Source: Devosia sp. SD17-2 (GTDB lineage: Bacteria > Pseudomonadota > Alphaproteobacteria > Rhizobiales > Devosiaceae). From it: 64,000 nt of DNA. Under the pieces are notes generated by a model. That model had not been told where the DNA came from and made no database searches. It worked only from the letters and a program-made list of their open reading frames with translations. Positions 1 to 14,370 of this stretch are shown here, piece after piece (position 1 is the first letter of the stretch; each line of letters opens with the position of its first letter). The stretch spans positions 4,167,114 through 4,231,113 of the forward strand of contig NZ_CP104002.1 in assembly GCF_029201565.1 (NCBI RefSeq). The letters are read 5' to 3'. A program made the position numbers and the translations under genes.

Positions 1-124
1 AGACGATGCGGATGGGCTGATGCTCGCGCTTGATGGCCGTGGCGATGATCTCGTCATAGGCGTTCTTCATGCCATAGAGTTTGAGCGCGCTCATGGTGGT
101 CAGGATCTCGGAGCGTTCCATCAT
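1..124 (-). CDS. istB: IstB, IS21-family helper ATPase (5' part only, runs off the window)
   Basis: The first 41 codons of IstB are visible; the rest lies left of the window. The N-terminus begins MMERSEILTTMSALKLYGMK, the usual helical start of IstB, the AAA+ helper that loads the IstA transposase of IS21 elements. The ATG overlaps the stop of the upstream istA remnant as ATGA, the classic IS21 arrangement for coupled translation. The Walker motifs are not in view, so whether istB is intact cannot be judged. With istA truncated, the copy is unlikely to move by itself. Confidence 0.85.
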   Translation of the reverse strand, partial: MMERSEILTTMSALKLYGMKNAYDEIIATAIKREHQPIRIV

Positions 125-618
125 ATTGCCCTCCTCAGGCTGTCGTAGCGAGAACAGTCGGCCGTCGGCTCGATGCGGAGCCGAAGGGCCTGCGGGGTGT
201 TCAGGACCGTGACCGGGCTGCGTGGTTCACGATGCCGGGCCAGGATGTTGAGCACGATATCGGCTGAGCAAACACCTTCGCGCAGCGCCTCGGCACAGGC
301 AGCCTCGACCGCTGGCAAGCCATCGCTAAGCACCGCGGTGAGGATGGTGACCATCTGCCGACCACCATCGGTTGCCGAGCTTAGCCGACGTCGGATCTTC
401 TCGATGCTGGCCGGCAGCACCCAGTCCTTAAAGGGCGCGCCATTGCGCCAGGCGCCAGGCTTGCGCGCCAGGACCGGAACATAGTGCCGGGGGTCATAAA
501 CGGTCTGGTCGCGACCGAAGCTGCGGGCATGCTCGCCGACCACCCTGCCGTCCTGGCGCAGCTCGACCCGATCGGCATAAGCCCGGATCTCGACCGGGCG
601 CCCCACGGCATTGGCCAT
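121..618 (-). pseudogene. istA: IstA transposase, C-terminal remnant of an IS21-family element
   Basis: The 165-codon remnant matches the C-terminal third of IstA: the region after the DDE core with a beta-rich segment (VEIRAYADRVELRQDGRVVG), then a HYVPVLARKPGAWRNG stretch and a helical tail. Full IstA proteins are about 400-500 residues, so the DNA-binding and most of the catalytic part is missing. A stop codon lies in frame seven codons upstream of the first ATG, so the reading frame does not continue to the right. The break therefore falls near 620-640. It is followed downstream by istB with an ATGA overlap. I treat it as a decayed insertion sequence. Confidence 0.8.
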
Positions 619-694
619 GACCCGCTGTGCGTTTCAACCGGCGATCATGACCTCGAAAGAGTCGGTGGGATCTTAAACAATGCCGAACTAGGGG

Positions 695-826
695 TCACAT
701 GACGGCTAAATAAGACGCCGCGATTGCTGCGAGGAGGGCTGCCAGACTGGGGATGAGCACTATCGCGCCCGAACCCAAGGCTAGGATCGCCGCCCAGCTG
801 AGCGATCTTTCGAATATTTTTGGCAT
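695..826 (-). CDS. 43-residue hydrophobic peptide, possible small membrane protein
   Basis: The peptide has a short basic, amphipathic start (MPKIFERSLSW) followed by about 30 residues of almost unbroken Ala, Leu, Ile, Gly and Val, ending SYLAVM. This is the composition of one long or two short membrane helices. A GAGATGAG stretch 5' of the ATG could serve as a weak ribosome site. An FNR/FixK-type box is centred about 98 bases upstream of the ATG, almost the same distance as the box of ccoN. No family is recognised. It stands alone between an IS remnant and the end of the cco operon. The regulatory box and the composition are the reasons for calling it; a chance reading frame is still possible. 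Confidence 0.4.
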   Translation of the reverse strand: MPKIFERSLSWAAILALGSGAIVLIPSLAALLAAIAASYLAVM

Positions 827-1213
827 GTCTCATCTCTGGTTGTTCACAAATCAGGCGGATAGCGTTGTAAAGGTCCCGGCAGATTAACCTAGTAGGCGCA
901 AATAATCACCGAGTGTATTGCCGTGGATCAAAGCTCTTTGATCTCCATGGTTTCGGTCAAGGCAGCTCAGGTTTGAGCTTTCATGTGCAGGGCACTCACC
1001 TTTTATAGAGGACCTTGGACTCTGTTAAACTGGCAATTGTTGAGATGGGAACCTAGAAGATTCGCGAACTGCTTAACCTCACATATCGACCCCGCCCAGT
1101 TGCGCCACCTAGGATCCACTGCGCCTTATGCACAAATGCATGATGCGGCGCTACCTTTGCGCTAAAGAGTGTCGCACCTACCAGAATGCGGCTTAGAATG
1201 GTCCGCTCCAGAG
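827..1213. other. Non-coding stretch between the cco operon end and the 43-residue peptide
   Basis: About 390 bases with no convincing coding frame on either strand and lower GC than the core genes (30 of 60 bases in 841-900). It contains the FNR/FixK-type box at 918-931 and an overlapping inverted repeat at 926-943 (GATCAAAG, two bases, CTTTGATC). It must hold the 3' untranslated end of the cco transcript and probably the promoter of the small peptide gene. Confidence 0.6.
918..931 (-). promoter_or_regulatory. FNR/FixK-type box upstream of the 43-residue peptide
   Basis: Read on the minus strand the site is TTGATCCACGGCAA. It fits the rhizobial FixK consensus TTG(A/C)-N6-(T/G)CAA when read on the plus strand and has a perfect FNR half-site TTGAT on the minus strand. 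The centre is about 98 bases from the ATG at 826. An inverted repeat at 926-943 overlaps it. Confidence 0.5.
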
Positions 1214-1357
1214 CTAAGTGTCATCTTCATCGAGGATGCGCTCGGCGGCGCCTTGCAGGTCATCATACTGCCCAGAGCGTAACGACCACAGAAAGGCGCC
1301 AAGGCCCAGCAGTCCAAGGCCAAACGCAATCGGTATCAGCACGATCAACACGTTCAT
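1214..1357 (-). CDS. ccoS: CcoS, cbb3 oxidase maturation protein
   Basis: CcoS is a small inner-membrane protein needed for insertion of cofactors into CcoN during cbb3 oxidase assembly. The 47-residue product has one N-terminal membrane helix (MNVLIVLIPIAFGLGLLGLG) followed by the family motif FLWSLRSGQYDDLQGAAERI and an acidic tail DEDDT. The motif W-x-x-R-x-G-Q-[FY]-[DE]-D-L is diagnostic of CcoS (FixS). The ATG overlaps the ccoI stop as ATGA, so translation is probably coupled. It is the last gene of the cco operon. Confidence 0.93.
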   Translation of the reverse strand: MNVLIVLIPIAFGLGLLGLGAFLWSLRSGQYDDLQGAAERILDEDDT

Positions 1358-3573
1358 GGCATCACGCCGGCGGATGTGGAAACGGCCCGCAATGTCTCTG
1401 GCGGCGGGGGGACGCGAAGGCGCAGAGCATTGCCGACTACGATCACGGATGACAAGGACATGGCGGCCGCCGCAACTAGAGGGGTTGCATAGCCCAGGAT
1501 GGCCACTGGTACTGCGATTGCGTTGTAAATCACCGCAAAGCCCAAGTTCTGTCGGATCAAACGCTCGGCATCCCGGGCAACGGCTCGCGTATGGGAAACT
1601 GCAGAAAGGCTGTCCTTGAGGAAGACGAAATCGGCAGCGTTGCGTCCGACATCGGCAGCGCCCGACGGCGCCATGGACACGTCGGCGCCGGCGAGGGCAG
1701 GCGCATCGTTAAGCCCATCGCCCACCATCAGCACGCTGTGTCCCTTGGCGCGCAACGACGCGATTAACTCAAGCTTGCCGGCGGGCAGCACGTCGCCGAA
1801 CGCATCATCCACTCCAATTTCAGCAGCTACGCGGGCGACTACTGCCGCTTCGTCTCCCGACACCAGCATCACCTTGAGTCCGTCAGCCTGCAGTGACGCG
1901 ACGGTGGTCTTGACGTCTGCCCGCAATTGATCCTCGAAGCGGAAGGCGGCAAGCATTTCGCCGTTTTGTGACAGAACAGTGCCTCGCGCAGCTCCAGGCT
2001 CATTAAGGGCCCAGTCGGCGCGGCCGAGGCGATAAAGATCCTGCCCTATCCAACCCTCGACTCCCAGGCCAGCCCTCTCGGCGACGCTGTCAAGCACCAC
2101 CGCGTCGGGTTGATCGGCAGCTTCCACCAGGGCCACCGACAGCGGATGGCGCGAACTGGCCGCCAGGGCTGCGGCAATGGCCATGGCCGGGCGCGCGATA
2201 TCGAGGGCATTGAGCAGGATCGGCCTGCCCACGGTCACGGTACCCGTCTTGTCCAGCACTACGGTGTCAATGGTGGCAATGCGCTCGAGGCCAGTGCCGT
2301 CCTTGGTAAGGATGGAGCGTTCAAACAGCCGGCGCGCTGCCACCACCTGCACGATCGGAACGGCAAGCCCCAGGGCGCAGGGGCAGGTGATGATCAGCAC
2401 GGTGATCGCCACGCTGATCGAATGGTGCCAGTCGCCCGACAGCAGCACCCAGCCGCCAAAGGTCAGCAGCGCCGTGAGATGGACAACCGGCGAATATAGC
2501 TGGGCCGCGCGATCGGCGATGCGCCGATAGCGGGCGCGGCCACCCTCGGCAGCTTCCATCAGGCGGACCATCTCGGCGAGGAACGAGTTCGCCGCAACCG
2601 CCGTGGCGCGCATCTGCAACGGGCCGGTGAGGTTGAGCGTCCCGGCGCGCAAGGCCGTCCCTACTGAGGCGAGCTGCGGCATTGCCTCCCCAGATACCAT
2701 CGCTACGTCCACGTCGGAGCTGCCATGTTCGACCACGCCATCCACCGGCACCCGGTCACCGGCTACCAGAACGATGCGGTCGCCCACCTCGATCTCGCCC
2801 ACCGGCACATATTCGCGCGTGTCGTCTGACCGCAGGATATTCGCGCCGCGGGCGGCGAGCCGCGCCAGACCCCGAACCGCCGTGCGCGCCCGTTCGCGCA
2901 TCATGTGATCGAGTGTGCGCCCGATCAGCAGGAAAAACAGCAGAGTGACCGAGGCGTCGAAATAGGCGTGGTGCCGCTCCGTAAGTGTCTCGAAGACGCT
3001 CAGTGCGAAGGCAAGGATAACCCCCAGTGAAATGGGAACATCCATGTTGGTGCGGCCATGGCGCAGCGCCTGCCAGGCCGAACGAAAGAACACCTGGCCT
3101 GAATAGGCCAGCGTCGGCAGCGCAATGAGTGCCGAAATCCAGTGAAACAGCTGTCGAGCCTCGTTGCTGGCCCCAGACCAGACGGAAACTGACAGCAACA
3201 TGATGTTGCTTGCCGCAAAGCCCGCCACCGCCATGGCGCGGATCAGCTTGCCGAGTTCGGCATCCTTGGCTTCGGGCAGATCGTCGCAATAATTGGCGGG
3301 ATAGCCAAGGCGATCGAGCGTACGTCGCAGCGGCGGGGGCGCATCGCGGCCCTGCCACTCCACCGCGACACGCCGGGTGGACAGGTTGACCCTTGCATTC
3401 TGGACGCCGGGCAAGGCGTTTAGGGACTTTTCCACACGCCGGATGCAGACGCCGCAATGGACGTCGGGCACAGACAGTTCGGTGCGGAACGTGCCGCTCT
3501 TGAGCGGGCGGCTCGCCAGCAGCAGTTCATCACTGCCGGTATGTGCTTCCGCGCTCGCGGCCATCACCGTCAT
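1354..3573 (-). CDS. ccoI: CcoI (FixI), copper-exporting P1B-type ATPase for cbb3 oxidase
   Basis: This is the copper-translocating ATPase that supplies copper for CcoN assembly. Residues from about 30 to 95 form a heavy-metal domain with the copper motif CGVC (VPDVHCGVCIRRVEKSL). Further on are membrane helices, the transport motif CPC (ITCPCALGLAVPIVQ), the phosphorylation site DKTGT and the hinge motif GDGLNDAPALAGADVS. At 739 residues it has normal length. I chose the ATG at 3573 because AGGTGAGG lies just upstream and the frame further 5' lies inside the preceding gene; a second ATG three codons later is possible. It follows the DUF2189 gene by 8 bases and overlaps ccoS. Confidence 0.95.
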   Translation of the reverse strand: MTVMAASAEAHTGSDELLLASRPLKSGTFRTELSVPDVHCGVCIRRVEKSLNALPGVQNARVNLSTRRVAVEWQGRDAPPPLRRTLDRLGYPANYCDDLPEAKDAELGKLIRAMAVAGFAASNIMLLSVSVWSGASNEARQLFHWISALIALPTLAYSGQVFFRSAWQALRHGRTNMDVPISLGVILAFALSVFETLTERHHAYFDASVTLLFFLLIGRTLDHMMRERARTAVRGLARLAARGANILRSDDTREYVPVGEIEVGDRIVLVAGDRVPVDGVVEHGSSDVDVAMVSGEAMPQLASVGTALRAGTLNLTGPLQMRATAVAANSFLAEMVRLMEAAEGGRARYRRIADRAAQLYSPVVHLTALLTFGGWVLLSGDWHHSISVAITVLIITCPCALGLAVPIVQVVAARRLFERSILTKDGTGLERIATIDTVVLDKTGTVTVGRPILLNALDIARPAMAIAAALAASSRHPLSVALVEAADQPDAVVLDSVAERAGLGVEGWIGQDLYRLGRADWALNEPGAARGTVLSQNGEMLAAFRFEDQLRADVKTTVASLQADGLKVMLVSGDEAAVVARVAAEIGVDDAFGDVLPAGKLELIASLRAKGHSVLMVGDGLNDAPALAGADVSMAPSGAADVGRNAADFVFLKDSLSAVSHTRAVARDAERLIRQNLGFAVIYNAIAVPVAILGYATPLVAAAAMSLSSVIVVGNALRLRVPPPPETLRAVSTSAGVMP

Positions 3574-3581
3574 CGCTGGCC

Positions 3582-4385
3582 TCACCTGATGGCTTTGTAT
3601 GCGTGCCAGGTGGCATGCCCGAGCAGGGGGAATACGATGATCATGCCGATCAATGCCGTGGCAACGGAGAGGGCGACCAGCACCATGACTACGGCCCCCC
3701 AGGCGATCATCACCCAGACATTGTTCCACACCAGGGCAAAGCTCACGCCCATGGCGGTGAGGGCGTCGCTGCGCTCGTTGAGCAGCATGGGTATGGAAAA
3801 GACACTGACGGCAAAGGCTAGCGCGGCAAACAGTCCACCCACGATGGTGCCGGTAAACAGCAGGCCCCATCCCAGCGGGGTGGTGACCAGCAGGATCAAC
3901 ATCTGGTCAAAGCCGGGAAAGGCCTTGTAGCCAAAGAACAGGGCGTAGAGCAACACCGCAGCCCGCATCCAGACCATCATCAGCAGCATCAACAGCAGGC
4001 CGGCAAAGATAACTTGAGAGCCCGACCTAGCCTTGGTGACAAGCATGCGATCAAGGTTGGCGCGTCCGCCCTCCTCAAGAATCCGGCTCTTTTCATAGAG
4101 GCCTATGGCTATCACGGGCGCCACGATCATAAAGCCCGACAGGGCCGGGAAAAGCACATAGTCCCAGCCGAAGGTGAACATGACATAGATCAAGAGCGCC
4201 GACAGTGCCGCCACCAGTACCCCATAGGCAAGGCTTTGCAGGGGGTCGCGCCACAGGTCTTGCCACCCCGCACCGAGCCAGGTGAACACGATCGAGAGCG
4301 GGAGGTGCCGCTGCTTGTTCGGATCAAGGGTCTCCTTGACGGTCGAGGTTTCCGAGAGGAGGCCGTAGTGGTTGGCGTCGGACAT
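3582..4385 (-). CDS. DUF2189 family integral membrane protein in the cco operon
   Basis: The 267-residue product matches the DUF2189 family by its overall pattern: a cytoplasmic N-terminus with the segment IVFTWLGAGWQDLWRDPLQS, then six or so membrane helices (for example LIYVMFTFGWDYVLFPALSG and MLLMMVWMRAAVLLYALFFG), a segment SVFSIPMLLNERSDALTAM and a short basic end. The function is unknown. DUF2189 genes are often found near oxidase or nitrite-reductase genes in alphaproteobacteria, which fits here. The ATG at 4385 is preceded by GGAG; a GTG four codons earlier is an alternative. It lies between the small membrane protein and ccoI, in the position where ccoG/ccoH normally sit. Confidence 0.85.
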   Translation of the reverse strand: MSDANHYGLLSETSTVKETLDPNKQRHLPLSIVFTWLGAGWQDLWRDPLQSLAYGVLVAALSALLIYVMFTFGWDYVLFPALSGFMIVAPVIAIGLYEKSRILEEGGRANLDRMLVTKARSGSQVIFAGLLLMLLMMVWMRAAVLLYALFFGYKAFPGFDQMLILLVTTPLGWGLLFTGTIVGGLFAALAFAVSVFSIPMLLNERSDALTAMGVSFALVWNNVWVMIAWGAVVMVLVALSVATALIGMIIVFPLLGHATWHAYKAIR

Positions 4386-4403
4386 CTTTTTCTCCACAAA
4401 CCG

Positions 4404-4607
4404 TCAGCAGGAAGACTTGGCGGCGCTGAACTGCCCGGGCGTCGCCACACCGGGCTTGCCATGTGCCACGCACTCGGGCTGCGACTGCAGCGCCACGTAG
4501 AGCAGGTGTGCATTGGCAGCGAGGAAGATGCCCATGACCGTCAGCACGATCGCGGCGCCGATGGCAAGGCGCCGCCAGGGCGGCGCCGACCCAGCCCGCG
4601 CCGTCAT
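4404..4607 (-). CDS. Small single-helix membrane protein of the cco operon, FixH-like N-terminal pattern
   Basis: The 67-residue product has a basic start, one membrane helix (RRLAIGAAIVLTVMGIFLAA) and then NAHLLYVALQSQPECV, ending in a periplasmic tail with a second Cys (SAAKSSC). The NxxLxYxALxSxP pattern resembles the start of FixH/CcoH by eye, but the rest of FixH (about 100 residues) is absent. Similar short proteins with the two Cys seem to recur in alphaproteobacterial oxidase operons; this is from memory, not a search. Its ATG overlaps the ccoP stop as ATGA, so it is a genuine operon member. A role in assembly or copper delivery is only a guess. Confidence 0.75.
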   Translation of the reverse strand: MTARAGSAPPWRRLAIGAAIVLTVMGIFLAANAHLLYVALQSQPECVAHGKPGVATPGQFSAAKSSC

Positions 4608-5488
4608 GGCGAGGCCATCCCCAATACATAGACATAGAGAGCCAGGGTCTTAATCTCAGTTGCTGTCAGACGCTCGTCCCAGGTCGGCATGTGGCCGGTC
4701 CGACCGCCGTGTACGGACTCGATGATGTCTTCTATAGTACCACCATAAAGCCAGGCCGCATCGGTCAGGTTCGGCGCTCCGATATCGGCTATGCCGGCGC
4801 CGCTTTCACCGTGACATCCAGAGCAATTATCGATGAACAATTGCTGGCCCGCTGCAATGGTGTCGACATTATCAACCGTCGAATATTCGGGCTGGCTCAT
4901 TGAATAAACATATTGGGCCACTTGACGTACTTCGGGCCGGCTCAGCGTGGCGTCGCGGCCAAAGGCGGGCATTTGCGAGGTGCGGGATTCATCATGGCGG
5001 GTATTTATGCCCACGCGCAAGGTTTCTGCGATCGCTTCCGGGCTACCATCGCCCCATAGCCAGTCGCCATCGGTGAGATCAGGATAGCTGCTGCGCCCGG
5101 TGCCGTTGAGCCCATGGCAGGCAGCGCAGTTGTCGCCAAACAACTGCCGCCCGCTCTGCGCTACGTTGGTCATCAGTGCCTCGTCGGCCTGGATCTGATC
5201 GAAGGGGAGCGCGGCAATCTGCGAGGTCCAGGGTTGGCGGGCCCTCTGATTACCCACGATGACCTGTTCCACCGTTTCTCTCTGGTCGATCCCCAGAATG
5301 CCCTTGGTATACGTCCAGCCAAGCGGAAAGGCGGGCATCAGGACCCACCATACCAAGGCGAACAAATGCGTGACGACGATGAACCATAGGATGCCGCGCG
5401 GAACAGGTGTATCCAGCTCCTTGATGCCGTTCCACTCGTGCCCAGTGGTCTGCTCCCCACTGACCGGGTCAATCTCGGTCTTGCTCAC
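4604..5488 (-). CDS. ccoP: CcoP, dihaem cytochrome c subunit of cbb3 oxidase
   Basis: CcoP passes electrons to CcoO in cytochrome cbb3 oxidase. The 294-residue product has a cytoplasmic N-terminus, a membrane helix (GILWFIVVTHLFALVWWVLM) and two periplasmic cytochrome c domains with haem motifs CAACH and CSGCH, each followed by a Met ligand region (SQMPAFG and GHMPTWDE). I chose the GTG at 5488: it is preceded by GAGGAGGATC, and it overlaps the ccoQ stop as GTGA. The frame runs further upstream but that DNA encodes ccoQ. Confidence 0.95.
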   Translation of the reverse strand: MSKTEIDPVSGEQTTGHEWNGIKELDTPVPRGILWFIVVTHLFALVWWVLMPAFPLGWTYTKGILGIDQRETVEQVIVGNQRARQPWTSQIAALPFDQIQADEALMTNVAQSGRQLFGDNCAACHGLNGTGRSSYPDLTDGDWLWGDGSPEAIAETLRVGINTRHDESRTSQMPAFGRDATLSRPEVRQVAQYVYSMSQPEYSTVDNVDTIAAGQQLFIDNCSGCHGESGAGIADIGAPNLTDAAWLYGGTIEDIIESVHGGRTGHMPTWDERLTATEIKTLALYVYVLGMASP

Positions 5489-5649
5489 GGACGATCCTCC
5501 TCGCGCAACACGGATGTTTTGGCGGCGTCGAACTTCTTCCGGTTCCTGGGCCAGAAAGTATAAACTAGCACGGCGGCGGTCATGGCCAGCAGGTAGAACA
5601 GACCCCAGCTCTTGGCGAAGGCGGTGAGTGTCGCATAATCGAAGGACAT
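5485..5649 (-). CDS. ccoQ: CcoQ, small subunit of cbb3 oxidase
   Basis: The 54-residue product has the CcoQ layout: a short N-terminus, one membrane helix (SWGLFYLLAMTAAVLVYTFW) and the family motif FWPRNRKKFDAAK, then an acidic-basic tail. CcoQ stabilises the interaction of CcoP with the CcoNO core. It starts 5 bases after ccoO and overlaps the GTG start of ccoP, so the order N-O-Q-P is canonical. Confidence 0.95.
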   Translation of the reverse strand: MSFDYATLTAFAKSWGLFYLLAMTAAVLVYTFWPRNRKKFDAAKTSVLREEDRP

Positions 5650-5654
5650 GATCG

Positions 5655-6437
5655 CTACTCCTCTGCCTGGTCCACTGCAGCTCCGGCTGCAACGGGGTCG
5701 GACGGCAGTTCAGGCGCGGCCGTGTCGAGATAAGCGGCATCGGTGAGTTGGCCCAATACCTGCAAGTAGGCGATCAGGGCGTCCAGTTCCGTAACGCTGG
5801 TGGTTACGCCATCAAAAGCGCTGATCTGGGTCGCCTCGCCATAGCGCTCGACCATGGCATAGGCATTGTCGGAGTCGGGCGTCGCCTGTCCGAGGGTGTC
5901 TCGGGCGGCTTCGGCGATCATTTCGTCGGTATAGGGCACGCCCAGCGCCTGCTGTGCCGCCAGATGGGCGGAGAGGCTCGATGCATCCACCTGCGTGCGT
6001 GCCAGCCACGGATAGGCGGGCATGTTGGATTCGGGCACGACGTCACGCGGATTGTTCATATGCATCGCGTGCCAGACATCGGAATACTTGCCGCCAACGC
6101 GGGCCAGATCTGGACCGGTGCGTTTTGATCCCCACTGCATGGGTCGGTCATACTGCGACTCGACAGCAAGGGAATAAGGGCCGTAGCGGTCTACTTCATC
6201 CGCGAGCGTCCGAATCATCTGGGAATGGCAGGCGTAGCAGCCTTCCCGGATGTAGATGTTACGACCGGCCAACTCGAGCGGGGTATAGACCCGCATGTCT
6301 GGTACTGTTTCGACGGTCTCGTCGATCGTGAACAGCGGGGCGATCTCTACGATGCCGCCAACGCTGGCAGCGGCGATGATGAGCAGGACGAAGCCAATTG
6401 CGTTGCGTTCGACTTTGCGGTGAAAGAACTCGGCCAT
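5655..6437 (-). CDS. ccoO: CcoO, monohaem cytochrome c subunit of cbb3 oxidase
   Basis: CcoO is the membrane-anchored monohaem cytochrome c that feeds electrons to CcoN. The 260-residue product has one N-terminal membrane helix (GFVLLIIAAASVGGIVEIAP), the haem-binding motif EGCYACHSQMIRT near residue 65, the segment RTGPDLARVGGKYSD, and the Met ligand region ESNMPAYPWL. The C-terminus ends in an Ala/Pro-rich tail. It begins 2 bases after the ccoN stop, indicating one transcript. Confidence 0.96.
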   Translation of the reverse strand: MAEFFHRKVERNAIGFVLLIIAAASVGGIVEIAPLFTIDETVETVPDMRVYTPLELAGRNIYIREGCYACHSQMIRTLADEVDRYGPYSLAVESQYDRPMQWGSKRTGPDLARVGGKYSDVWHAMHMNNPRDVVPESNMPAYPWLARTQVDASSLSAHLAAQQALGVPYTDEMIAEAARDTLGQATPDSDNAYAMVERYGEATQISAFDGVTTSVTELDALIAYLQVLGQLTDAAYLDTAAPELPSDPVAAGAAVDQAEE

Positions 6438-6439
6438 GA

Positions 6440-8089
6440 CTACTCCGCAGGGCTTGGGACTGCGCCGGCAGGGGCAAGTTCACCCTCGTCCAGCTTTTCT
6501 TGAACCGGAACGCCTCGCCGCACCGTCATCCAGATGTTGTAAGAGCCCACAATGGCGCCGATCAGGAACAGCAGCCCGCCGATGGTCCGCGCGATATAGT
6601 AGGGATACATGGCGACCAGAGTATCCACGAAGGAGTAGGCCAGCGTGTCACTCTCGGTATAGGTGCGCCACATCAGCCCCTGGATGATCCCCGAGTTCCA
6701 CATGGCGAACACGTAGATCAACGTGCCGGTCAGAGCGAGCCAAAAGTGGACCTCGATAAGGCCGTTAGAATACATGCGCTCGCGCTTCCAAAGCGCAGGC
6801 ACCAGCGTGTAGATCGACCCGAATGTAATCAGCGCCACCCAGCCCAGCGCACCAGCGTGAACGTGCCCCACCGTCCAGTCGGTATAGTGCGAGAGGGAGT
6901 TTACCGCGCGCACGGCCATGAACGATCCCTCGAAGGTCGAGAGCCCGTAAAAGATCGCCGCGACGACCATGAAGCGAAGGGTGGCATCGTCGCGTACCTT
7001 GTGCCAGGCGCCGCGTAGGGTCATCAGCGCATTGCCGGCCGATGCCCAGGACGGCACCAGCAGCATGACGGAAAAGGTCATGCCAAGAGTCTGCACCCAG
7101 TGCGGCAAAGCCGTATAGTGTAGGTGGTGCGAACCAGCCCACATGTAGAAGAAGGTGATGCCCCAGAAACTGAGGATGGACAGCCGGTAGGAGAAGATTG
7201 GTCTATTGGCACGCTTGGGCAGGTAATAATACATCATGGCGAGAAAGCCCGCCGTGAGAAAGAAGGCTACCGCGTTGTGGCCATACCACCACTGCACCAT
7301 TGCATCCTGCACCCCCGGCCAGATCGTGTAGCTCTTGGCACTGGCGAGGCTTACCGGCAGGGCAAGGTTGTTGACGATGTGCAAGATCGCCACGACGACG
7401 ATAAACGCCAAGTAGTACCAGTTGGCGACGTAAATATGGGGTTCTTTGCGCCGAGCAAGAGTGCGGAGAAACAGCACGAAGTACGTCACCCAGACGATTA
7501 CAAGCCAGATGTCAGCATACCATTCAGGCTCGGCATATTCCTTGGATTGGGTAATGCCCATGCCATAGCCAGTGACGGCCATGATGCAGAACAGATTGTA
7601 ACCAAAGATGACGAACCAAGGGCTTACATGCCCGGCGAGGCGCGCCCGGCTGGTACGCTGGACAACATGGAATGAAGTGGCGATGAGGGCATTGCCACCG
7701 AAGCCGAAGATGACGCCAGTCGTATGAGCGGGGCGTAACCGGCCAAAAGTAGACCAGGCCGTGTCGAAATTAAGAGCCGGCCAAGCCAACTGCGCTGCGA
7801 CCCATACCCCGACGAACATCCCGAAAATGGCCCAGGCCATGGTCAGGGCAATGCCCACCTTGATCGGATCGTCGTAATAGCTTGTCGCTCGGTTTTCGCT
7901 CGGTTCGGGCAGGCTTAGCCGCGGCAAAATATAAGCAGCCGCCGACAAGCATAGCAGAATGACCATAAGACCATGGACCCCAATAGGGTCCCACCGCCCC
8001 GGCACTGCAAGCAACAGCGCCCCTAGCCCTATCAGCGTAAGCAGCAAGAGGCACAGCCGCCGCTCGTCATGTGTCAATCCTGCAACCAT
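6440..8089 (-). CDS. ccoN: CcoN, catalytic subunit of cbb3-type cytochrome c oxidase
   Basis: CcoN holds haem b and the b3-CuB oxygen-reducing site. The 549-residue product has the expected row of membrane helices. It has His-rich motifs at the right places: RPAHTTGVIFGFGGNALIA, then WYGHNAVAFFLTAGFLAMMY (CuB ligand region), the HH pair in MWAGSHHLHYTALPHW, and HYTDWTVGHVHAGALGWVA (haem ligands). The N-terminus has two extra hydrophobic segments before the canonical PIKVGIALTMAW start, as in other alphaproteobacterial CcoN. It is the first gene of the operon and has an FNR/FixK-type box about 97 bases upstream. Confidence 0.97.
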   Translation of the reverse strand: MVAGLTHDERRLCLLLLTLIGLGALLLAVPGRWDPIGVHGLMVILLCLSAAAYILPRLSLPEPSENRATSYYDDPIKVGIALTMAWAIFGMFVGVWVAAQLAWPALNFDTAWSTFGRLRPAHTTGVIFGFGGNALIATSFHVVQRTSRARLAGHVSPWFVIFGYNLFCIMAVTGYGMGITQSKEYAEPEWYADIWLVIVWVTYFVLFLRTLARRKEPHIYVANWYYLAFIVVVAILHIVNNLALPVSLASAKSYTIWPGVQDAMVQWWYGHNAVAFFLTAGFLAMMYYYLPKRANRPIFSYRLSILSFWGITFFYMWAGSHHLHYTALPHWVQTLGMTFSVMLLVPSWASAGNALMTLRGAWHKVRDDATLRFMVVAAIFYGLSTFEGSFMAVRAVNSLSHYTDWTVGHVHAGALGWVALITFGSIYTLVPALWKRERMYSNGLIEVHFWLALTGTLIYVFAMWNSGIIQGLMWRTYTESDTLAYSFVDTLVAMYPYYIARTIGGLLFLIGAIVGSYNIWMTVRRGVPVQEKLDEGELAPAGAVPSPAE

Positions 8090-8178
8090 TAAGCAGATCC
8101 TCTAATCCTTGCCCGTTCGCCGCCTTGAGCGGTTCGGATCCCTACCTCTGTCTCTACTACCAATTGTCGCATTCAAGT

Positions 8179-8192
8179 TTGTTCTGCGTCAA
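8179..8192 (-). promoter_or_regulatory. FNR/FixK-type box upstream of ccoN
   Basis: On the minus strand the site is TTGACGCAGAACAA, which fits TTGA-N6-nCAA and the FNR consensus TTGAT-N4-ATCAA at seven of ten fixed positions. Its centre is about 97 bases before the ccoN ATG. If it acts as a class II site near -41, the transcript would have a leader of about 55 bases. This fits oxygen-responsive control of cbb3 oxidase. Confidence 0.6.
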
Positions 8193-8465
8193 AGAGAGCG
8201 CGACGGCTAAACGTAGCCATTGTCACACCAACCAACGAGACAGTTCAAGTAGGCGGATGATGAACCTGTGACTTGGCTTGGTCGTTCAATGCCGCTGACA
8301 CGAACACAATTAAAAAAGAAGTTGAAGAGGCCACAACAGCGAGCTTGAAATAGCTCAACTACTTTTTCCAGTGAACGCGGCACTTGAAATCCAAAAATGC
8401 CTGCTACACATTGGCTTTCGAGCCCAAACTGCTGAAAGCCCCGTGCTTCCGGAAGTCCCGGAGAG

Positions 8466-8482
8466 TCCCTCTCTCTCCGCCA
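8466..8482 (+). other. Orphan tRNA-Ser 3' end including CCA, probable attachment-site scar
   Basis: The 17 bases TCCCTCTCTCTCCGCCA match the T-loop-to-CCA end of common tRNA-Ser genes as I know them. A pyrimidine- and T-rich stretch follows, as after a tRNA gene. The upstream bases do not fold as a tRNA. Such 3'-end fragments are left at one end of islands that integrate into tRNA genes. In this orientation the island would lie to the left, covering 1-8465, with the intact tRNA-Ser outside the window. Recognition is by memory of tRNA-Ser, not by alignment. Confidence 0.5.
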
Positions 8483-8618
8483 TTCTTCCAATTTTCCTTT
8501 TTCGGACCGCTCCTGCTTTCGCGCCGGGGGTTTGACGCTGGGCGTAACCCTTCACATTCGGCCCGGTGAAACCTTTGCCCCCCGTTCGGATTGAATGGGG
8601 AGAGCAAGGAGTTTTGCC

Positions 8619-8858
8619 ATGACTTTTCCCGCAGATCCCGCGCAGCGGCAGCCCAAGGGCGATCATAATCGCCGCCTGGCACTTGGACTTGAGCCGGAGG
8701 CTCTGGCCGCCGAAGCCGGCGTGACCGTTGAGCAATTGCGTGATTATGAGCGCACCGGCCCGGACCAGGATTTCGACCTCGACGTGGCCCAGCGCGTCGG
8801 TGCTGCGCTCGAACGTATCGAAGCCAATCCACCCCCGACCCAATCCGTCATCACCTGA
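8619..8858 (+). CDS. Small HTH-like protein of unknown target
   Basis: The 79-residue product contains a segment LGLEPEALAAEAGVTVEQLR with DYERTGPDQDFDL after it. This is the helix-turn-helix pattern of Xre-type proteins, with 'AAEAGVTVEQLRDYE' as the likely recognition part. It has a basic start and Pro-rich end. The ATG at 8619 is preceded by AAGGAG at good spacing; an ATG eight codons earlier has no such site. It stands immediately right of the tRNA-Ser fragment and upstream of the DUF421 gene in the same direction. It could also be a small non-DNA-binding helical protein. Confidence 0.6.
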   Translation: MTFPADPAQRQPKGDHNRRLALGLEPEALAAEAGVTVEQLRDYERTGPDQDFDLDVAQRVGAALERIEANPPPTQSVIT

Positions 8859-8918
8859 GCCGCGGCGGGGAATTTCCGCCGACGGTAGCTGTGGGTGGTT
8901 GGTTGCAGGTTTGGAGAA

Positions 8919-9617
8919 ATGGAACAGGCTGTAAGCGAGCTCGACTGGCAGCGAATGCTGATCGGGGACGATTCGGCGATCGTCTTTGTCGAGATCCTCA
9001 TCCGCACCGTCATTATCTATGGCTATACGCTGGCGCTGTTGCGCTGGCTGGGCGGGCGCGCCATCGGGCAATTGTCGACGGTGGAGTTCCTGCTCGTCAT
9101 TGCCCTCGGATCGGCCGTCGGCGACGCCATGTTCTATCCGGACGTGCCTCTCCTCCACGCCATGGCGGTGGTCACGCTCGTCGTCCTTGCCAATAAGGGT
9201 CTGGACATGGCCATGGCGCGCAATCGCGCCTTCGAGCGCGCCCTCGACGGGGCGCCCAAGGAAGCGGTCCGCCAGGGTGTGATCCTGGCCAGCTTTCTCA
9301 AGGACAAGGCGCTGACCACCAATGAACTGGCCCAGCAGCTGCGCCAGAGGGGCATCGAGCATCTCGGACAGGTCGAACATGCCTATGTCGAAACCGATGG
9401 CGTGCTCACCGTCTTCAAGAGCGCGCCGCAAGCCCGCCCCGGCTTGCCCATCGTGCCGCCATGGGAGATTGAACACCCCCGGCCCGTGGCAGCGGATGCT
9501 TCTCCAGATGGACCGGTCGCTTGCCTCCATTGCGGATACCTCGCCCAGCCGGCCCATCGGGGCACCTGCCCCAATTGCGGGGGCGAGCAATGGACCCTCG
9601 CGCGCACCGACCGCTAA
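8919..9617 (+). CDS. DUF421 (YetF/YcaP-like) membrane protein with C-terminal zinc ribbon
   Basis: The N-terminal half has three membrane segments and the DUF421 signature (RTVIIYGYTLALLRWLGGRA, then GQLSTVEFLLVIALGSAVGD). The cytoplasmic domain follows, with the KGVILxxxLKDKxLTTNELxxQLRxRGI-like segment at residues 120-155. After a Pro-rich linker the protein ends in CLHCGY and CPNCGG, two CxxC pairs 15-20 residues apart, i.e. a rubredoxin-like zinc ribbon. DUF421 proteins are of unknown function. The ATG at 8919 has GGAG very close; a GTG at 8895 is an alternative without a clear site. Confidence 0.85.
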   Translation: MEQAVSELDWQRMLIGDDSAIVFVEILIRTVIIYGYTLALLRWLGGRAIGQLSTVEFLLVIALGSAVGDAMFYPDVPLLHAMAVVTLVVLANKGLDMAMARNRAFERALDGAPKEAVRQGVILASFLKDKALTTNELAQQLRQRGIEHLGQVEHAYVETDGVLTVFKSAPQARPGLPIVPPWEIEHPRPVAADASPDGPVACLHCGYLAQPAHRGTCPNCGGEQWTLARTDR

Positions 9618-9805
9618 GCTCGGACCGAGGCAAGCACCTCCGCTGCGCCATGGCCCGCGTTATTTTTGCGCGCGCGTCCGCTGCGGCAGGGCGAAATTCC
9701 TCTTCTCGATCGGGATTTAGGTCACTGTGCTTTGCCCGGCTGCCCCGTTTTGGCCATTATTTGGCCAAAGCGGCACATCGGCCGCGACGAGAGTAGGGCA
9801 AAGCA

Positions 9806-10735
9806 ATGACAAGCATAACCAAGCGCCTGGCCGCCTTCGCCGGTGTCGTGGCAATGGCAGCCGTTCCGAGCGTGGCGCTGGCCGTGGATGGCCCGCTGGT
9901 CACCGCCGACTGGCTGTAGGAAAATCTCAACAATCCAAATGTGCGCATCTTCGAGGTCAGCGTCGACACCGGCGTCTACGCCCGTGGCGACATTCCGGGC
10001 GCCATCAATCTCAACTGGCACACCGATCTCGTTGACACCGTGCGCCGTGACATCGTCTCGAGCGATGGGCTCGAAGCGCTGCTGCAGCAGGCCGGCGTTA
10101 CCGAAGACACCACCATTGTCCTTTATGGCGACAACAATAACTGGTTCGCCGCCTGGGGCGCCTGGGTGTTCGATATCCACGGGCTCGGCGACGTAAAGCT
10201 GCTCGATGGCGGTCGCAAGTATTGGGAAGGCCAGGGCCTGCCCTTCGACACAGCGACGCCGGAATATGCAACCTCCACCATCGACCTGCCGTCCGAGCCG
10301 GCACCGCTGCGCGCCCGCCTCGTCGACGTGCTGGAAGTGGTTGAAGGGGGCGCCGATGTATCGCTCGTCGATATTCGCGGGCCCAAGGAATATTCGGGCG
10401 AGATCTTTGCCCCCGAAGGCGTGCAGGAACTCTCCGTCCGCGCCGGCCATATCCCGGGCGCCGTGAACTTCCCCTGGGGCGGTGCCGTGCAGGAAGACGG
10501 TCGCTTCAAGTCGGCCGAGGACCTCAAGGCCGCCTTTTCCGCCATCGGCATCGACGGCTCCAAGCCGATCATCACCTATTGCCGCATTGGCGAACGCTCC
10601 AGCCACACCTGGTTCGTGCTGTCGCGCATCCTCGGCTATGAGGTGCGCAATTACGACGGCTCCTGGACCGAATATGGCAATGCCGTCGGCGTGCCGATCA
10701 CCAATCCGTCGGGCACGGTCTGGGGCAAGATCTGA
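9806..10735 (+). pseudogene. Exported rhodanese-type sulfurtransferase interrupted by an in-frame TAG
   Basis: The reading frame encodes an exported thiosulfate sulfurtransferase of about 309 residues: signal peptide (ITKRLAAFAGVVAMAAVPSV), two rhodanese domains and the active-site loop YCRIGERSSHTWF with its catalytic Cys. Codon 38 is TAG (9917-9919), directly after TADWL and before ENLNNPN, where related proteins carry a sense codon, most simply CAG (Gln). Coding continues cleanly in the same frame. Restart at the GTG at 9941 would give 264 residues without the signal peptide. So the gene is probably inactivated unless the stop is a sequencing error or is read through. A sulfur transporter gene follows, suggesting thiosulfate metabolism. 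Confidence 0.85.
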
Positions 10736-10808
10736 GCCACTTCCGTTTAGAGCAAACTGATAGTTCCGGACGGGCGCCACCAGCGCCCGTCTTTCTCATG
10801 GGGCAGAC

Positions 10809-12011
10809 ATGACCACGCCAGCCATCCGCTTCGGCCTTCCGCTTCTCATCGCCATCGGCCTTGCCTGGGGCTTTTTCGTGCTCAATGGCCAGGGCCCGGA
10901 AGGGCGTCCGCTGGCCTTTTCGCTCGCGATCGGCGCCGCCTTCGGCGTCGTCCTGCAGCGCAGCCGCTTCTGCTTTTACTGCAATTTTCGCGATCTCATT
11001 GAAAAGCGCCAGGCGGCGGGCGTGATCGCCATCCTCGTGGCTCTTGGCGTCGGCGCCATTGGCTACACCGCCATCTTCGGCGCCTGGCTGCCGACCCCGG
11101 CCCCTGGCCGCCTGCCCCCAACCGCCCATATCGGACCGGTCAGCCTGACGTTGGTCATCGCTGCCTTCGCCTTTGGAATCGGCATGGCCATTTCCGGCTC
11201 ATGCCTTTCCGCTCATTTTTATCGGCTAGCCGAAGGTTCGGTGATTTCGCCCTTCGCCATCATTGGGGCCGGCCTTGGCTTTGGGCTGGGGTTCCTCACC
11301 TGGAACCCGCTGTTCCTCGCCATAACCTCGAACGCCTTCATCCTCTGGTTGCCCAATATTTTTGATTATGCCGGTGCGCTGGCGATCACGATTGCGGCGC
11401 TCGCCGCCCTCGCCGTCGCCGCTCTGTGGTGGGCGCGCCCGGCCATGTCGGAGCCCGCCGCTTCACTGACCCTTGGCGAAGCCATCGATCGGGTGTTCTT
11501 CCACCGCTGGCCAGCCGTGCTCGGCGGTACCCTCGTGGGCATCATTTCCACGCTCGCCTATTTTCGCGTCGCGCCGCTGGGCGTCACCGCCGAGCTCGGC
11601 TCGATCGTGCGCACCGCCGGCACTGCCTGGGACGTCTTGCCGGGGACGCTGTTTGGCCTCGACGGACTGCGCGGCTGCGCCACCATCATCAAGGAAGCGC
11701 TGCTTTCCCATAACGGCCTCTTCGTTATCGGGCTGATCGGGGCGTCCTTCATCACCTCGCTCATTGCCGGCCAGTTCAAGCCGCGCCGTCTTACCGGGCT
11801 CGACGTGGTGCGCGGCCTCTCAGGCGGCCTTCTGCTCGGCTGGGGTTCGATGACCGCGCTCGGCTGCACCGTCGGCGTGCTGCTTTCGGGCATTCATGCC
11901 GGCTCGCTTTCGGGCTGGGTGTTTCTCCTCGCCTCGTGCATGGGCATTCTGGCCGCGCTCTTCCTCGCAAAGCTGGTGAGCGGCCGCGCCGTCGCCCCAC
12001 AGACCGCGTAA
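10809..12011 (+). CDS. YeeE/YedE family sulfur-compound transporter
   Basis: The 400-residue integral membrane protein has the two-repeat architecture of YeeE/YedE (TsuA-type thiosulfate transporters). Cys-containing conserved loops are visible: LQRSRFCFYCNFRDL near residue 55, AISGSCLSAHFYRLAEGS near 135, LRGCATIIKEALLS near 290 and GWGSMTALGCTVGVLLSGI near 350. Thiosulfate passes such proteins by contact with conserved cysteines. It lies 73 bases after the rhodanese frame, which suggests a shared transcript and a joint role in taking up and using thiosulfate. Confidence 0.9.
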   Translation: MTTPAIRFGLPLLIAIGLAWGFFVLNGQGPEGRPLAFSLAIGAAFGVVLQRSRFCFYCNFRDLIEKRQAAGVIAILVALGVGAIGYTAIFGAWLPTPAPGRLPPTAHIGPVSLTLVIAAFAFGIGMAISGSCLSAHFYRLAEGSVISPFAIIGAGLGFGLGFLTWNPLFLAITSNAFILWLPNIFDYAGALAITIAALAALAVAALWWARPAMSEPAASLTLGEAIDRVFFHRWPAVLGGTLVGIISTLAYFRVAPLGVTAELGSIVRTAGTAWDVLPGTLFGLDGLRGCATIIKEALLSHNGLFVIGLIGASFITSLIAGQFKPRRLTGLDVVRGLSGGLLLGWGSMTALGCTVGVLLSGIHAGSLSGWVFLLASCMGILAALFLAKLVSGRAVAPQTA

Positions 12012-12032
12012 ATCTGATGAACTACACCTTGG

Positions 12033-12054
12033 AAAGCCCGTAAAACCGGGCTTT
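12033..12054 (+). terminator. Probable terminator after the sulfur transporter
   Basis: An 8-bp stem AAAGCCCG/CGGGCTTT with a six-base loop lies 22 bases after the stop codon. Only a short T run follows, so termination may be partial. Confidence 0.55.
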
Positions 12055-12265
12055 CGGCCGTAAAAACAGGCGAGCCTTGACTTGGCCTCATTTGAGGTAG
12101 AGTATAGCGATATACGTTTTCTGCCCCTGTTGGCGACCTGATCTGACCGAGTTTGTCGGTTACTTAGCTTTCCTCCCGATTTGCGAACGTTTTAGACTCC
12201 AGTCGCATGTGCGGCGGAGAAACTGCTCGTTTGCATTCAATCGAGCGAAACGCTGAGAAGCTAAA

Positions 12266-12472
12266 ATGATCAACGGCACCGTCAAGTTCTACAATTCCAC
12301 CAAGGGCTTTGGCTTTATCTCCCCCGACGACGGCGGCAAGGATGCATTCGTGCATGTGTCTGCGCTTGAGCGCGGCGGGATTTCTGATCTGGCCGATGGC
12401 CAGAAGGTTACCTACGACCTTGAAAAGGGTCGCGATGGTCGCGAATCCGCGATCAATCTGCAGGCAGCCTAG
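12266..12472 (+). CDS. cspA: Cold-shock protein, CspA family
   Basis: The 68-residue protein is a single cold-shock domain that binds single-stranded RNA and DNA and acts as an RNA chaperone. RNP1 is GFGFISPDD and RNP2 is DAFVHVSAL; the start MINGTVKFYNSTKGFGF is canonical. A long leader (about 250 bases from the previous gene, with TTGACT at 12077 as a possible -35) fits the regulated leaders of csp genes. A GC hairpin follows the stop. The downstream genes to rpsU form a cluster often seen in this order. Confidence 0.95.
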   Translation: MINGTVKFYNSTKGFGFISPDDGGKDAFVHVSALERGGISDLADGQKVTYDLEKGRDGRESAINLQAA

Positions 12473-12483
12473 TTCGTCTCTTC

Positions 12484-12504
12484 GCGGGGACCCTCGGTCC
12501 CCGC
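12484..12504 (+). other. Stable hairpin between cspA and the next gene
   Basis: A 9-bp perfect stem GCGGGGACC/GGTCCCCGC with a three-base loop lies 12 bases after the cspA stop. No T run follows, so it more likely protects or separates the cspA message than ends transcription fully. Confidence 0.5.
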
Positions 12505-12523
12505 CCCCAATCGGGAGCATTTT

Positions 12524-12778
12524 GTGTTGCATCGCTATAAAGTCGGCCAGATCCTGGAACTTCGCTCTGCCCCACGGCACAGCAACCGGCCAGCCGGGAC
12601 TTGCGAAGTGATCAATTGCCTCCCACATGAGACTGGCCCGGTGCTCTATCGGGTCAAGTCCTGGAATGAGCGCATCGAGCGGGTGGTCGAGGAAGTCGAC
12701 CTGTCCCCCAGCGATAGCCGCAAGACAATTTCCAGCGAAACGGAACGCGTTTTCGACATCGCCGTTTCCAAGAAATAG
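12524..12778 (+). CDS. Small conserved alphaproteobacterial protein downstream of cspA
   Basis: The 84-residue product has a beta-rich pattern: YKVGQILELRSAPR, then CEVINCLPHETGPVLYRVKS and a segment NERIERVVEEVDLSP. The YRIKS...E..ERVV.E.DL pattern is one I recognise from small uncharacterised proteins in this class; no function is known. The start is GTG, with GGGAG eight to ten bases upstream. It follows cspA by 51 bases in the same direction and may be co-expressed with it. Confidence 0.75.
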   Translation: MLHRYKVGQILELRSAPRHSNRPAGTCEVINCLPHETGPVLYRVKSWNERIERVVEEVDLSPSDSRKTISSETERVFDIAVSKK

Positions 12779-12993
12779 CCTGTCACGGCTGCCTTGCGCA
12801 GCCGGACCAGTTTTTTCGCCCCACTCATGCGCTCCAAGCGCAGGCGGGCGGATCAAACGGCCCCCCTCGTCACGAGCCTGTCAAGAAAGACGCTTACGAG
12901 GAGTGGAAGCCGCAAGGGTGCCCAGGCACCATCAACCACCAGCGCCAAAGGCGCTGAATCAAGACCGGCTCAAGCCGGCAGAAAGACTGAATA

Positions 12994-13218
12994 ATGAACA
13001 CTCAAATGCTTCATTCGCCGGGAGAACTCTTCCTCGGCAGCGACGCCGCCACCGCAATTGCGCAGGGCTCGCGTCATTTTCGCAGCGCCGATAAAGCCGT
13101 GCGCTTTGCGATGGAACATGCCGCGCCGGTAAGCCTGCGCGGCGCCATGCTCAAAATCGGCGGCCGTACACTCGGCCCGTCCGAAATCCGCTCGCTGCAT
13201 CGGCAGCTGAGCCGTTAG
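12994..13218 (+). CDS. Small conserved protein of unknown function (74 residues)
   Basis: The product has a segment SRHFRSADKAVRFAMEHAAP followed by a short LRGAMLKIGGRTLGPSEIRSLH end. This 'FxSAxxAVRFAMEE...LRGxxLxxxxxxxxxxEIRxL' pattern is found in small uncharacterised alphaproteobacterial proteins. The ATG overlaps by one base (TAATG) a short basic reading frame upstream that I do not call. It lies between cspA and rpsU, convergent with rpsU. Confidence 0.65.
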   Translation: MNTQMLHSPGELFLGSDAATAIAQGSRHFRSADKAVRFAMEHAAPVSLRGAMLKIGGRTLGPSEIRSLHRQLSR

Positions 13219-13431
13219 TCCACAAGACTAAGATGAAAATTGCGGGGTCCCTTGTCGTCCAGAACGGGCGGTGAGGGGCCCCGCGCCCGTTTGAGCCGCT
13301 GAAGCGGCCGTCCCGGCCCCACATGGCGAGGTCTTTGCTGGGCAAAAGGCTCGGCGCATGGGGGCGGTACAAAGCGTTCAGGCCGCGCCCTGTTGCCAGG
13401 GATCGGCCAGTACAATCGCTTGGCGGTAGAC

Positions 13432-13698
13432 TTATTGTGCCGGGCGCGGCGAAGAGCCGGGGCGCGGAGCGCGGGCCGGAGCCTTGGGTGCAGCGATCAG
13501 GCCTTCACGGATTGCCTGCTTGCGTGCAGCCTTACGAGCGCGACGAACGGCTTCAGCCTTTTCGCGCACGCGAGCCTCGGAGGGCTTCTCGAAATACTTA
13601 CGGAGCTTCATCTCCCGGAACACGCCTTCGCGCTGGAGACGCTTCTTGAGCACGCGGAGGGCCTGCTCGACATTGTTGTCGCGAACTTGAACCTGCAA
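13432..13698 (-). CDS. rpsU: 30S ribosomal protein S21
   Basis: S21 binds the 3' region of 16S rRNA in the 30S subunit and helps initiation. The 88-residue product starts [20 protein letters not shown] and continues with the conserved [20 protein letters not shown] segment. It is longer than the usual 70 residues because of an Ala/Pro/Arg-rich tail ([17 protein letters not shown]), as in many alphaproteobacteria. A second S21 gene is common in this order, so this may be one of two copies. Confidence 0.95.
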
Positions 13699-13905
13699 GA
13701 ACTTTCCTAACGTTTTTTGGCCGCCTCACCTTGCGGCAGACGGAGCCGATCCTCTGATCGTGGCACTTCGTTATCAGCAGAGCCGTCTCTCGCCAACCCG
13801 CCTTTGCAAAAATGGTTGCGTTCCGGGCCTCTGAAGGCCAAGATTCTTTCTATCTGGGGCAGAGACGGCTAGATAAACGGCCAGATCGCTACCGGAAAAC
13901 TGCCA

Positions 13906-14370
13906 ATGGTTGCCATTTTTATCGATGCTGACGCCTGTCCGGTCAAGGACGAGGCCCTGCGCGTGGCCGAGCGACACGGGCTCGTCATCACCTATGTGGC
14001 CAATTTTGGCCTCCGTCCGTCGCGCGATTCTATGGTTCGCACGGTAATGGTGCCCCAGGGGGCCGACGCTGCCGACGACTGGATCGTTGAAAACGCGGCG
14101 GCCGGCGATCTCGTCGTCACTGCCGATATTCCACTTGCCAGCCGCGTGCTCGAAAAGGGCGCTGCGGCCATCGGCCCGACCGGCAAGCTCTTTACCCGCG
14201 AGAGCATCGGCATGGCACTCGCCATGCGCGAGCTGAACCAGTACCTGCGCGAGACCGGGGAAAGCCGCGGCTTCACCGCCGCCTTTTCGGCGAAGGACCG
14301 CTCCAACTTCCTCCAGCATTTTGATGCCCTGGTGCAGCGGGCCAAGCGCGACGCGCAAAATAGCCTTTGA
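13906..14370 (+). CDS. YaiI/YqxD family (DUF188) protein
   Basis: The 154-residue product matches UPF0178 (DUF188). It begins with FIDADACPVKDEALRVAERH, holds the central TVMVPQGADAADDWIVENA and DLVVTADIPLASRVLEKGA, and ends with the FTRESIGMALAMREL and DRSNFLQHFD segments. The acidic residues are arranged as in PIN-like nucleases, but the function is unproven. The start ATG at 13906 fits the family N-terminus. The SDR gene follows in the same direction after 127 bases. Confidence 0.92.
   Translation: MVAIFIDADACPVKDEALRVAERHGLVITYVANFGLRPSRDSMVRTVMVPQGADAADDWIVENAAAGDLVVTADIPLASRVLEKGAAAIGPTGKLFTRESIGMALAMRELNQYLRETGESRGFTAAFSAKDRSNFLQHFDALVQRAKRDAQNSL

Follow-up and report, generated by a model that had tools for sequence, protein, structure and literature searches.

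A cbb3 oxidase operon in a tRNA-Ser genomic island of Devosia sp. SD17-2

Does the cbb3-type cytochrome oxidase (cco) operon of Devosia sp. SD17-2 sit on a genomic island that integrated into a serine tRNA gene? We addressed this question in a 64,000-nucleotide stretch of DNA, hereafter the window (G000:C1:4167114-4231113), which is the final 64 kb of a one-contig genome of 4.23 Mb; G000 is the genome containing the window, and other G numbers are the relatives with which it was compared. The question arises from 17 bases, TCCCTCTCTCTCCGCCA, at window positions 8466-8482 on the forward strand, which a first-pass annotation had read as a tRNA-Ser 3′ end without a tRNA body and as a probable attachment scar from an integration that brought in the operon. 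We found that these bases are indeed the displaced 3′ end of a tRNA-Ser gene, that they form the right attachment junction (attR) of a 31,457-bp island, and that the cco operon belongs to this tRNA-Ser genomic island. Site-specific integration of a genomic island holding the operon is, in our judgement, close to certain.

The evidence begins with the location of the tRNA from which the scar derives. A window scan allowing up to three mismatches returned the 17-mer as an exact and sole match (shuffled sequences would give 0.21), and ARAGORN detected no tRNA anywhere in the 64-kb window. Across the whole genome, the exact 17-mer is present in three copies, all on one strand: one is the scar in the window, and the other two form the 3′ termini of the GGA and CGA tRNA-Ser genes, the CGA copy near 327,660. 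The intact tRNA-Ser(GGA) gene (G000:C1:4144049-4144138) lies left of the window, ends with the identical 17 bases, and is separated from the end of the scar by 31,457 bp. An intact tRNA at one end and a displaced 3′ fragment in direct orientation at the other is the arrangement of a tRNA island, and an integrase open reading frame (ORF) starts just 63 bases after tRNA-Ser(GGA) (G000:C1:4144202 to about 4145540). The window therefore contains the right-hand 8.5 kb of the island (1-8482, no strand assigned), while the remainder (G000:C1:4144139-4167113) follows tRNA-Ser(GGA) and starts with the integrase gene, which is truncated.

The unoccupied site was found in a genome labelled as the same species, G061. 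Window positions 8463-14000 match its contig C56 at 96% identity (approximately 5.5 kb), and on this contig an intact tRNA-Ser(GGA), whose last 17 bases are those of the scar, runs directly into the sequence that lies to the right of it in the window. G061 gave no CcoN match, and against 10.4 kb of the other island cargo it gave just two matches, one covering 161 query bases (71% identity) and the other 57 (82%). Because its tRNA is joined to the right flank, with no ccoN match and scant other cargo, we conclude that the operon is part of the tRNA-Ser island. The checks proposed with the first-pass annotation thus bore it out, with the qualification that the integrase is truncated: a tRNA-Ser with the same 17 bases and an adjoining integrase were found to the left, and a strain without a ccoN match has its tRNA running straight into the right flank. 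Neither observation that had been named as contrary to an integration scar was made, as no cco-less genome carried the 17 bases in the same non-tRNA context, and both tRNA-Ser and integrase are present upstream.

We propose that an island of a family seen here in Devosiaceae integrated at the 3′ end of tRNA-Ser(GGA), its integrase recombining the element-borne tRNA end with the chromosomal one by a presumed strand exchange. The outcome is a whole tRNA on the left and a 17-bp displaced copy on the right, at window 8466-8482. The integrase gene is now cut off where it joins an IS91-type element, leaving an island that is probably immobile by itself.

This last point follows from the state of the integrase gene. 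The G000 ORF aligns over 433 columns, at 67% identity, with a full-length 602-amino-acid protein of G061, and its homology ends at residue 429 of 602, so that a whole integrase able to excise the island is not present at this locus. The point of loss precedes an HSFRG motif and a C-terminal stretch with a tyrosine, both conserved across the three full-length relatives and containing what we take to be catalytic residues. After the break, another frame encodes a recombinase without the first 43 profile positions of Phage_integrase, followed by a Zn_Tnp_IS91 protein. As a small IS91-like remnant is also found behind the full-length G061 integrase, a deletion from the integrase into the adjacent IS91-type element would account for the join as well as an insertion would. 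Since the integrase gene is cut off at this join, the island can probably no longer leave its site, barring the action of a different integrase in trans. In profile searches, PHROG integrases were matched by the full-length G061 protein (3.2e-11), and DUF6538 by each of the three full-length relatives, in one case slightly below the cut-off. A search of solved structures with the integrase gave one match at E 0.097, which is unusable.

To place the island in a wider family, we searched 75 genomes of the genus. The right arm, which lies inside attR (8376-8465, forward strand), was searched as a pattern derived from the window and G079, tolerating 2 mismatches at most; similar sequence was present at 8 places in 7 of the 75 genomes (G000, G035, G079, G092, G019, G022, and G070). 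Five of these 8 junctions, including that of G000, carry the exact 17-mer. In G035, the right junction is TCCCATCCTCTCCGCCA, which is the end of that genome's own tRNA-Ser(GCT), itself with an integrase beside it. G092 has one shortened junction copy and another that diverges from the GCT end after 11 matching bases. Integrase relatives (E ≤ 1e-20) were present in 8 of the 75 genomes, and a tRNA-Ser was found at 9/9 loci, which represent 8 places; the anticodon of the adjacent tRNA-Ser was GGA in 2 genomes, CGA in 4, and GCT in 2. Arm and integrase occur together in G000, G035, G079, and G092, the arm only in G019, G022, and G070, and the integrase only in G061, G073, G075, and G097; full-length integrase relatives were read in G061, G079, and G035. 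Among 397 genomes of the order, a draw from a larger group, two matched the integrase (E ≤ 1e-60), namely G000 and a genome from another genus of its own family, in which the match also adjoins tRNA-Ser(GGA).

Across 1,500 bases around tRNA-Ser(CGA), G000 and G061 share 99.8% identity, and the two sequences diverge 3 bases beyond the end of the tRNA. A full-length integrase is located at this tRNA in G061 (G061:C16, L229:9097-11093), and none is there in G000, near 327,660. We regard it as more likely than not that a single integrase lineage, which we saw in Devosiaceae only, treats the 3′ end common to the GGA, CGA, and GCT tRNA-Ser genes as an interchangeable target. On this reading, the junction would follow the tRNA used, and strains of the same species would carry related elements at tRNA-Ser genes of different anticodon, as G000 and G061 do.

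At G079:C17 near 208,850 (L092), the right arm of an island is followed by sequence resembling the left arm of another, which suggests that two elements adjoin each other; this 7-kb stretch gave no related integrase at the threshold used.

Several results weigh against the integration of a cco island as we have described it. Three of these concern profile searches with the integrase: none of the three full-length relatives matches Pfam Phage_integrase, the full-length G061 protein, the sole one scanned, gives no NCBIfam match, and the truncated G000 ORF matches no PHROG. In G073, G075, G092, and G097, the integrase is matched in part only, with an internal stop in two of these four, and the two marks of the family coincide incompletely, as an integrase was matched in just 4 of the 7 right-arm genomes and a right arm was not found in 4 of the 8 integrase genomes. 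G061 is a draft genome whose empty-site contig C56 begins 6 bases before the tRNA. Its left flank is on a separate contig, C22, at 87% identity, below that of the right flank; because C22 ends inside the tRNA, the join of left flank and tRNA rests on a 55-base overlap with C56. The next closest genome by tRNA flank, G082, has no CcoN match, and is not a second clean empty site because 3.5 kb of other genes intervene between its tRNA and the right flank, without the 17-bp repeat. A DNA search with the right flank covered 61 genomes (G000 and 60 relatives; G061 and G082 are absent from these, both having come from the tRNA-side search), and at 19/19 matching loci of more distant relatives the fetched stretch held no tRNA, so the order of the flanks is not genus-wide. 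Finally, CcoN is common in the genus, with matches in 38 of the 75 genomes (E ≤ 1e-100).

We also compared the operon itself with its relatives. The cco block has 87.4% DNA identity to G012 over 6,874 bp, and the other listed G012 matches, which come from non-island queries and exclude tRNAs, range from 68 to 73%. At the protein level, CcoN of G000 is 96% identical to those of G012 and G073, 85% to that of G070, and 84% to that of G019, with the next at 74%. In a CcoN tree of 108 rows built by a quick method, these five proteins group in a clade of their own, outside the main clade with its 20 genus rows, inside which CcoN of Devosia equisanguinis falls, and 4 further genus rows occupy a third position; a minimum of 4 changes on well-supported branches is required for the 29 genus rows. 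The five-genome clade sits near Jiella, Aurantimonas, and Arsenicitalea, and because Arsenicitalea itself belongs to Devosiaceae, a donor outside this family is not shown. G000 has four PF00115 matches, the island's included, and one CcoN match at E ≤ 1e-100. In G012 (L223, G012:C9) and G070 (L225, G070:C34), the cco operon lies among genes that we presume to be copper and denitrification (nitrite-reductase) genes. In G070, ccoN and tRNA-Ser(GGA) are on one contig, approximately 17 kb apart.

DNA homology to the G012 cco block stops near the operon on both sides, and an IS21 piece adjoins the operon, so a mosaic history of the island is likely, and the operon may have arrived together with the element or after it. 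The suggestion that the oxidase was acquired as a unit is supported by its place inside a tRNA-Ser island, with the refinement that in this mosaic the operon may have joined either before the integration or afterwards. It is possible, if less likely, that the island integrated at tRNA-Ser(GGA) first and that cco entered afterwards by another route, a history that shares the island and differs in the order of events only. Such a late entry would fit the limits of the G012 homology and the adjoining IS21 fragment, as well as the fact that cco relatives occupy other surroundings and that, in the draft genomes G075 and G073, relatives of the other cargo are on contigs that do not carry cco. It fits less well with the position of ccoN, within 400 bp of the conserved right end, and we noticed no insertion-sequence ends flanking the operon, although no search was aimed at these.

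The comparison with G061 bears on two further histories. For the direction of change, we infer a gain in G000. The reverse, in which an island already present in the ancestor of the species was removed from G061 by precise excision without any recent gain in G000, strikes us as improbable: the full-length integrase of this family that G061 has at tRNA-Ser(CGA) might excise such an island, but G082 also lacks both CcoN and the 17-bp repeat. Only one other conspecific genome was compared. A chance match of the 17 bases, with the operon belonging to old core DNA, would agree with an identity limited to 17 bases and with the presence of CcoN in 38/75 genus genomes; set against the empty site in G061, the recurring arms, and the tRNA-matched junction in G035, we give this coincidence almost no credence. 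Integration of a cco-bearing island at tRNA-Ser(GGA) thus remains the reading we prefer.

All genes of the operon lie on the reverse strand. In order of transcription, these are ccoN, encoding cbb3 oxidase subunit I (6440-8089; TIGR00780, 653.5 bits against a cut-off of 583.15); ccoO, subunit II (5655-6437; TIGR00781, 307.2 bits against 200.65); a ccoQ-like ORF of 54 amino acids between ccoO and ccoP, named by position and look only (5485-5649); ccoP, subunit III (4604-5488; TIGR00782, 275.1 bits against 179.95), whose start was set by a 294-amino-acid G012 homologue; a DUF2189 gene (3582-4397; PF09955); and a gene for a ccoI-like copper P-type ATPase (1354-3573; TIGR01511, the copper-ATPase subfamily, 521.9 bits against 397), whose start was set by a 739-amino-acid G012 homologue. 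CcoN, CcoO, and CcoP all score above their NCBIfam cut-offs, as a cbb3-type oxidase should, and from its sequence ccoNOQP-DUF2189-ccoI is expected to encode a cbb3-type oxidase working at low oxygen. The DUF2189 gene occupies the position between ccoP and ccoI in G000 as in relatives, and was counted in 56 of 86 cco-bearing or comparison loci.

Upstream of ccoN, the reverse strand at 8179-8192 reads TTGACGCAGAACAA, compared with TTGACGCAGATCAA at the homologous place in G012; we take this to be an FNR/FixK-type box with one mismatch, which is exact in G012 and has one mismatch in G073 as in the window. A second TTGA-N6-TCAA, exact, is further upstream at 8345-8358. Among 78 named ccoN loci, 28 carry an exact TTGA-N6-TCAA no more than 350 bases upstream, the distance being counted from the match start, which is not always the gene start, and 2 more loci were too short. 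With an exact box in just 28/78 loci and a second exact box at 8345-8358, we make no claim that FNR/FixK control was lost.

Base composition had also been offered as a sign of the island. The spacer between ccoN and the scar (8090-8465) is low in guanine and cytosine (GC), at 50.0%, as had been noted; the cco stretch is at 61.3%, the island as a whole at 60.5%, and the flanks at 62.4% and 63.4%. Composition alone is weak evidence because markedly low GC is confined to the short spacer, and with island and flanks differing by only about 2-3 GC points we set it aside. The IS21 element at the left of the window is incomplete, as described earlier, with a truncated istA piece (121-618, reverse strand; a 165-amino-acid ORF with a Mu-transposase C-terminal match, PF22483, on residues 3-42) and the 5′ end of a 243-amino-acid ORF (1-124, reverse strand; whole ORF G000:C1:4166506-4167237) that runs off the left edge of the window and that we presume to be istB-like.

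From left to right, and by Pfam family, the island cargo comprises the truncated integrase, IS91 pieces, two aldo/keto reductases, and a LysR regulator; then HamA and HamB remnants of a Hachiman system (PADLOC), a Mutator-family transposase, a von Willebrand A protein, and a protein without a Pfam family; then a molybdopterin-binding protein, a histidine kinase, a response regulator, MgtE, and a baeRF protein; and, at the right end, a universal stress protein, the IS21-type remnant, and the cco operon. The Hachiman remnants (G000:C1:4150991-4152873, L010:3992-5874) are broken, with one ORF corresponding to the C-terminal part of HamA and two ORFs to separate stretches of HamB. No relaxase or conjugation family was found by Pfam in 17 ORFs left of the window and 6 island ORFs within it, a scan that left out the first universal-stress ORF, istB, the HamA remnant, the 292-amino-acid IS91 ORF, and some ORFs of 102-287 amino acids; on this evidence the island does not qualify as an integrative and conjugative element (ICE).

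Islands of this kind are known. The Islander database describes tRNA islands as having a regenerated tRNA at one end, a displaced fragment at the other, and an integrase inside (PMC4383910), and the G000 island likewise has a whole tRNA, a displaced fragment, and an internal integrase gene. It differs in that its integrase is truncated and that the relatives of this integrase have a DUF6538 N-terminus and were matched in 2/397 order genomes, both of its own family. In Mesorhizobium, the genes specific to symbiosis ICEs (ICESym) include low-oxygen cbb3-type oxidase genes, and some symbiosis elements are located at tRNA-Ser, although the passages concerned do not say outright that those carry cbb3 (PMC8627217). 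The G000 island resembles ICESym in carrying cbb3 oxidase genes; unlike ICESym, it is 31 kb long, and the 17 scanned ORFs left of the window include no relaxase or conjugation family. Compared with known cbb3 operons (ccoNOQP with ccoI), the G000 operon has CcoN, CcoO, and CcoP at the NCBIfam level and an order similar to that of Hyphomicrobiales loci, whereas no ccoG, ccoH, or ccoS was noticed, though no search was made for them. A literature search, with most subscription journals outside its coverage, found no publication joining Devosia, a genomic island, and cbb3, and none on an integrase, serine tRNA isoacceptors, and a genomic island.

The island is thus a new and well-documented case of ordinary gene acquisition within a known class of elements. 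It indicates that a cbb3 oxidase operon can sit as tRNA-island cargo in a free-living relative of rhizobia, where an island-borne operon may bear on low-oxygen growth. With both ends recognizable, full-length integrases in relatives, and three tRNA targets, the element family is a tidy system in which to ask how an integrase tolerates different tRNA isoacceptors.

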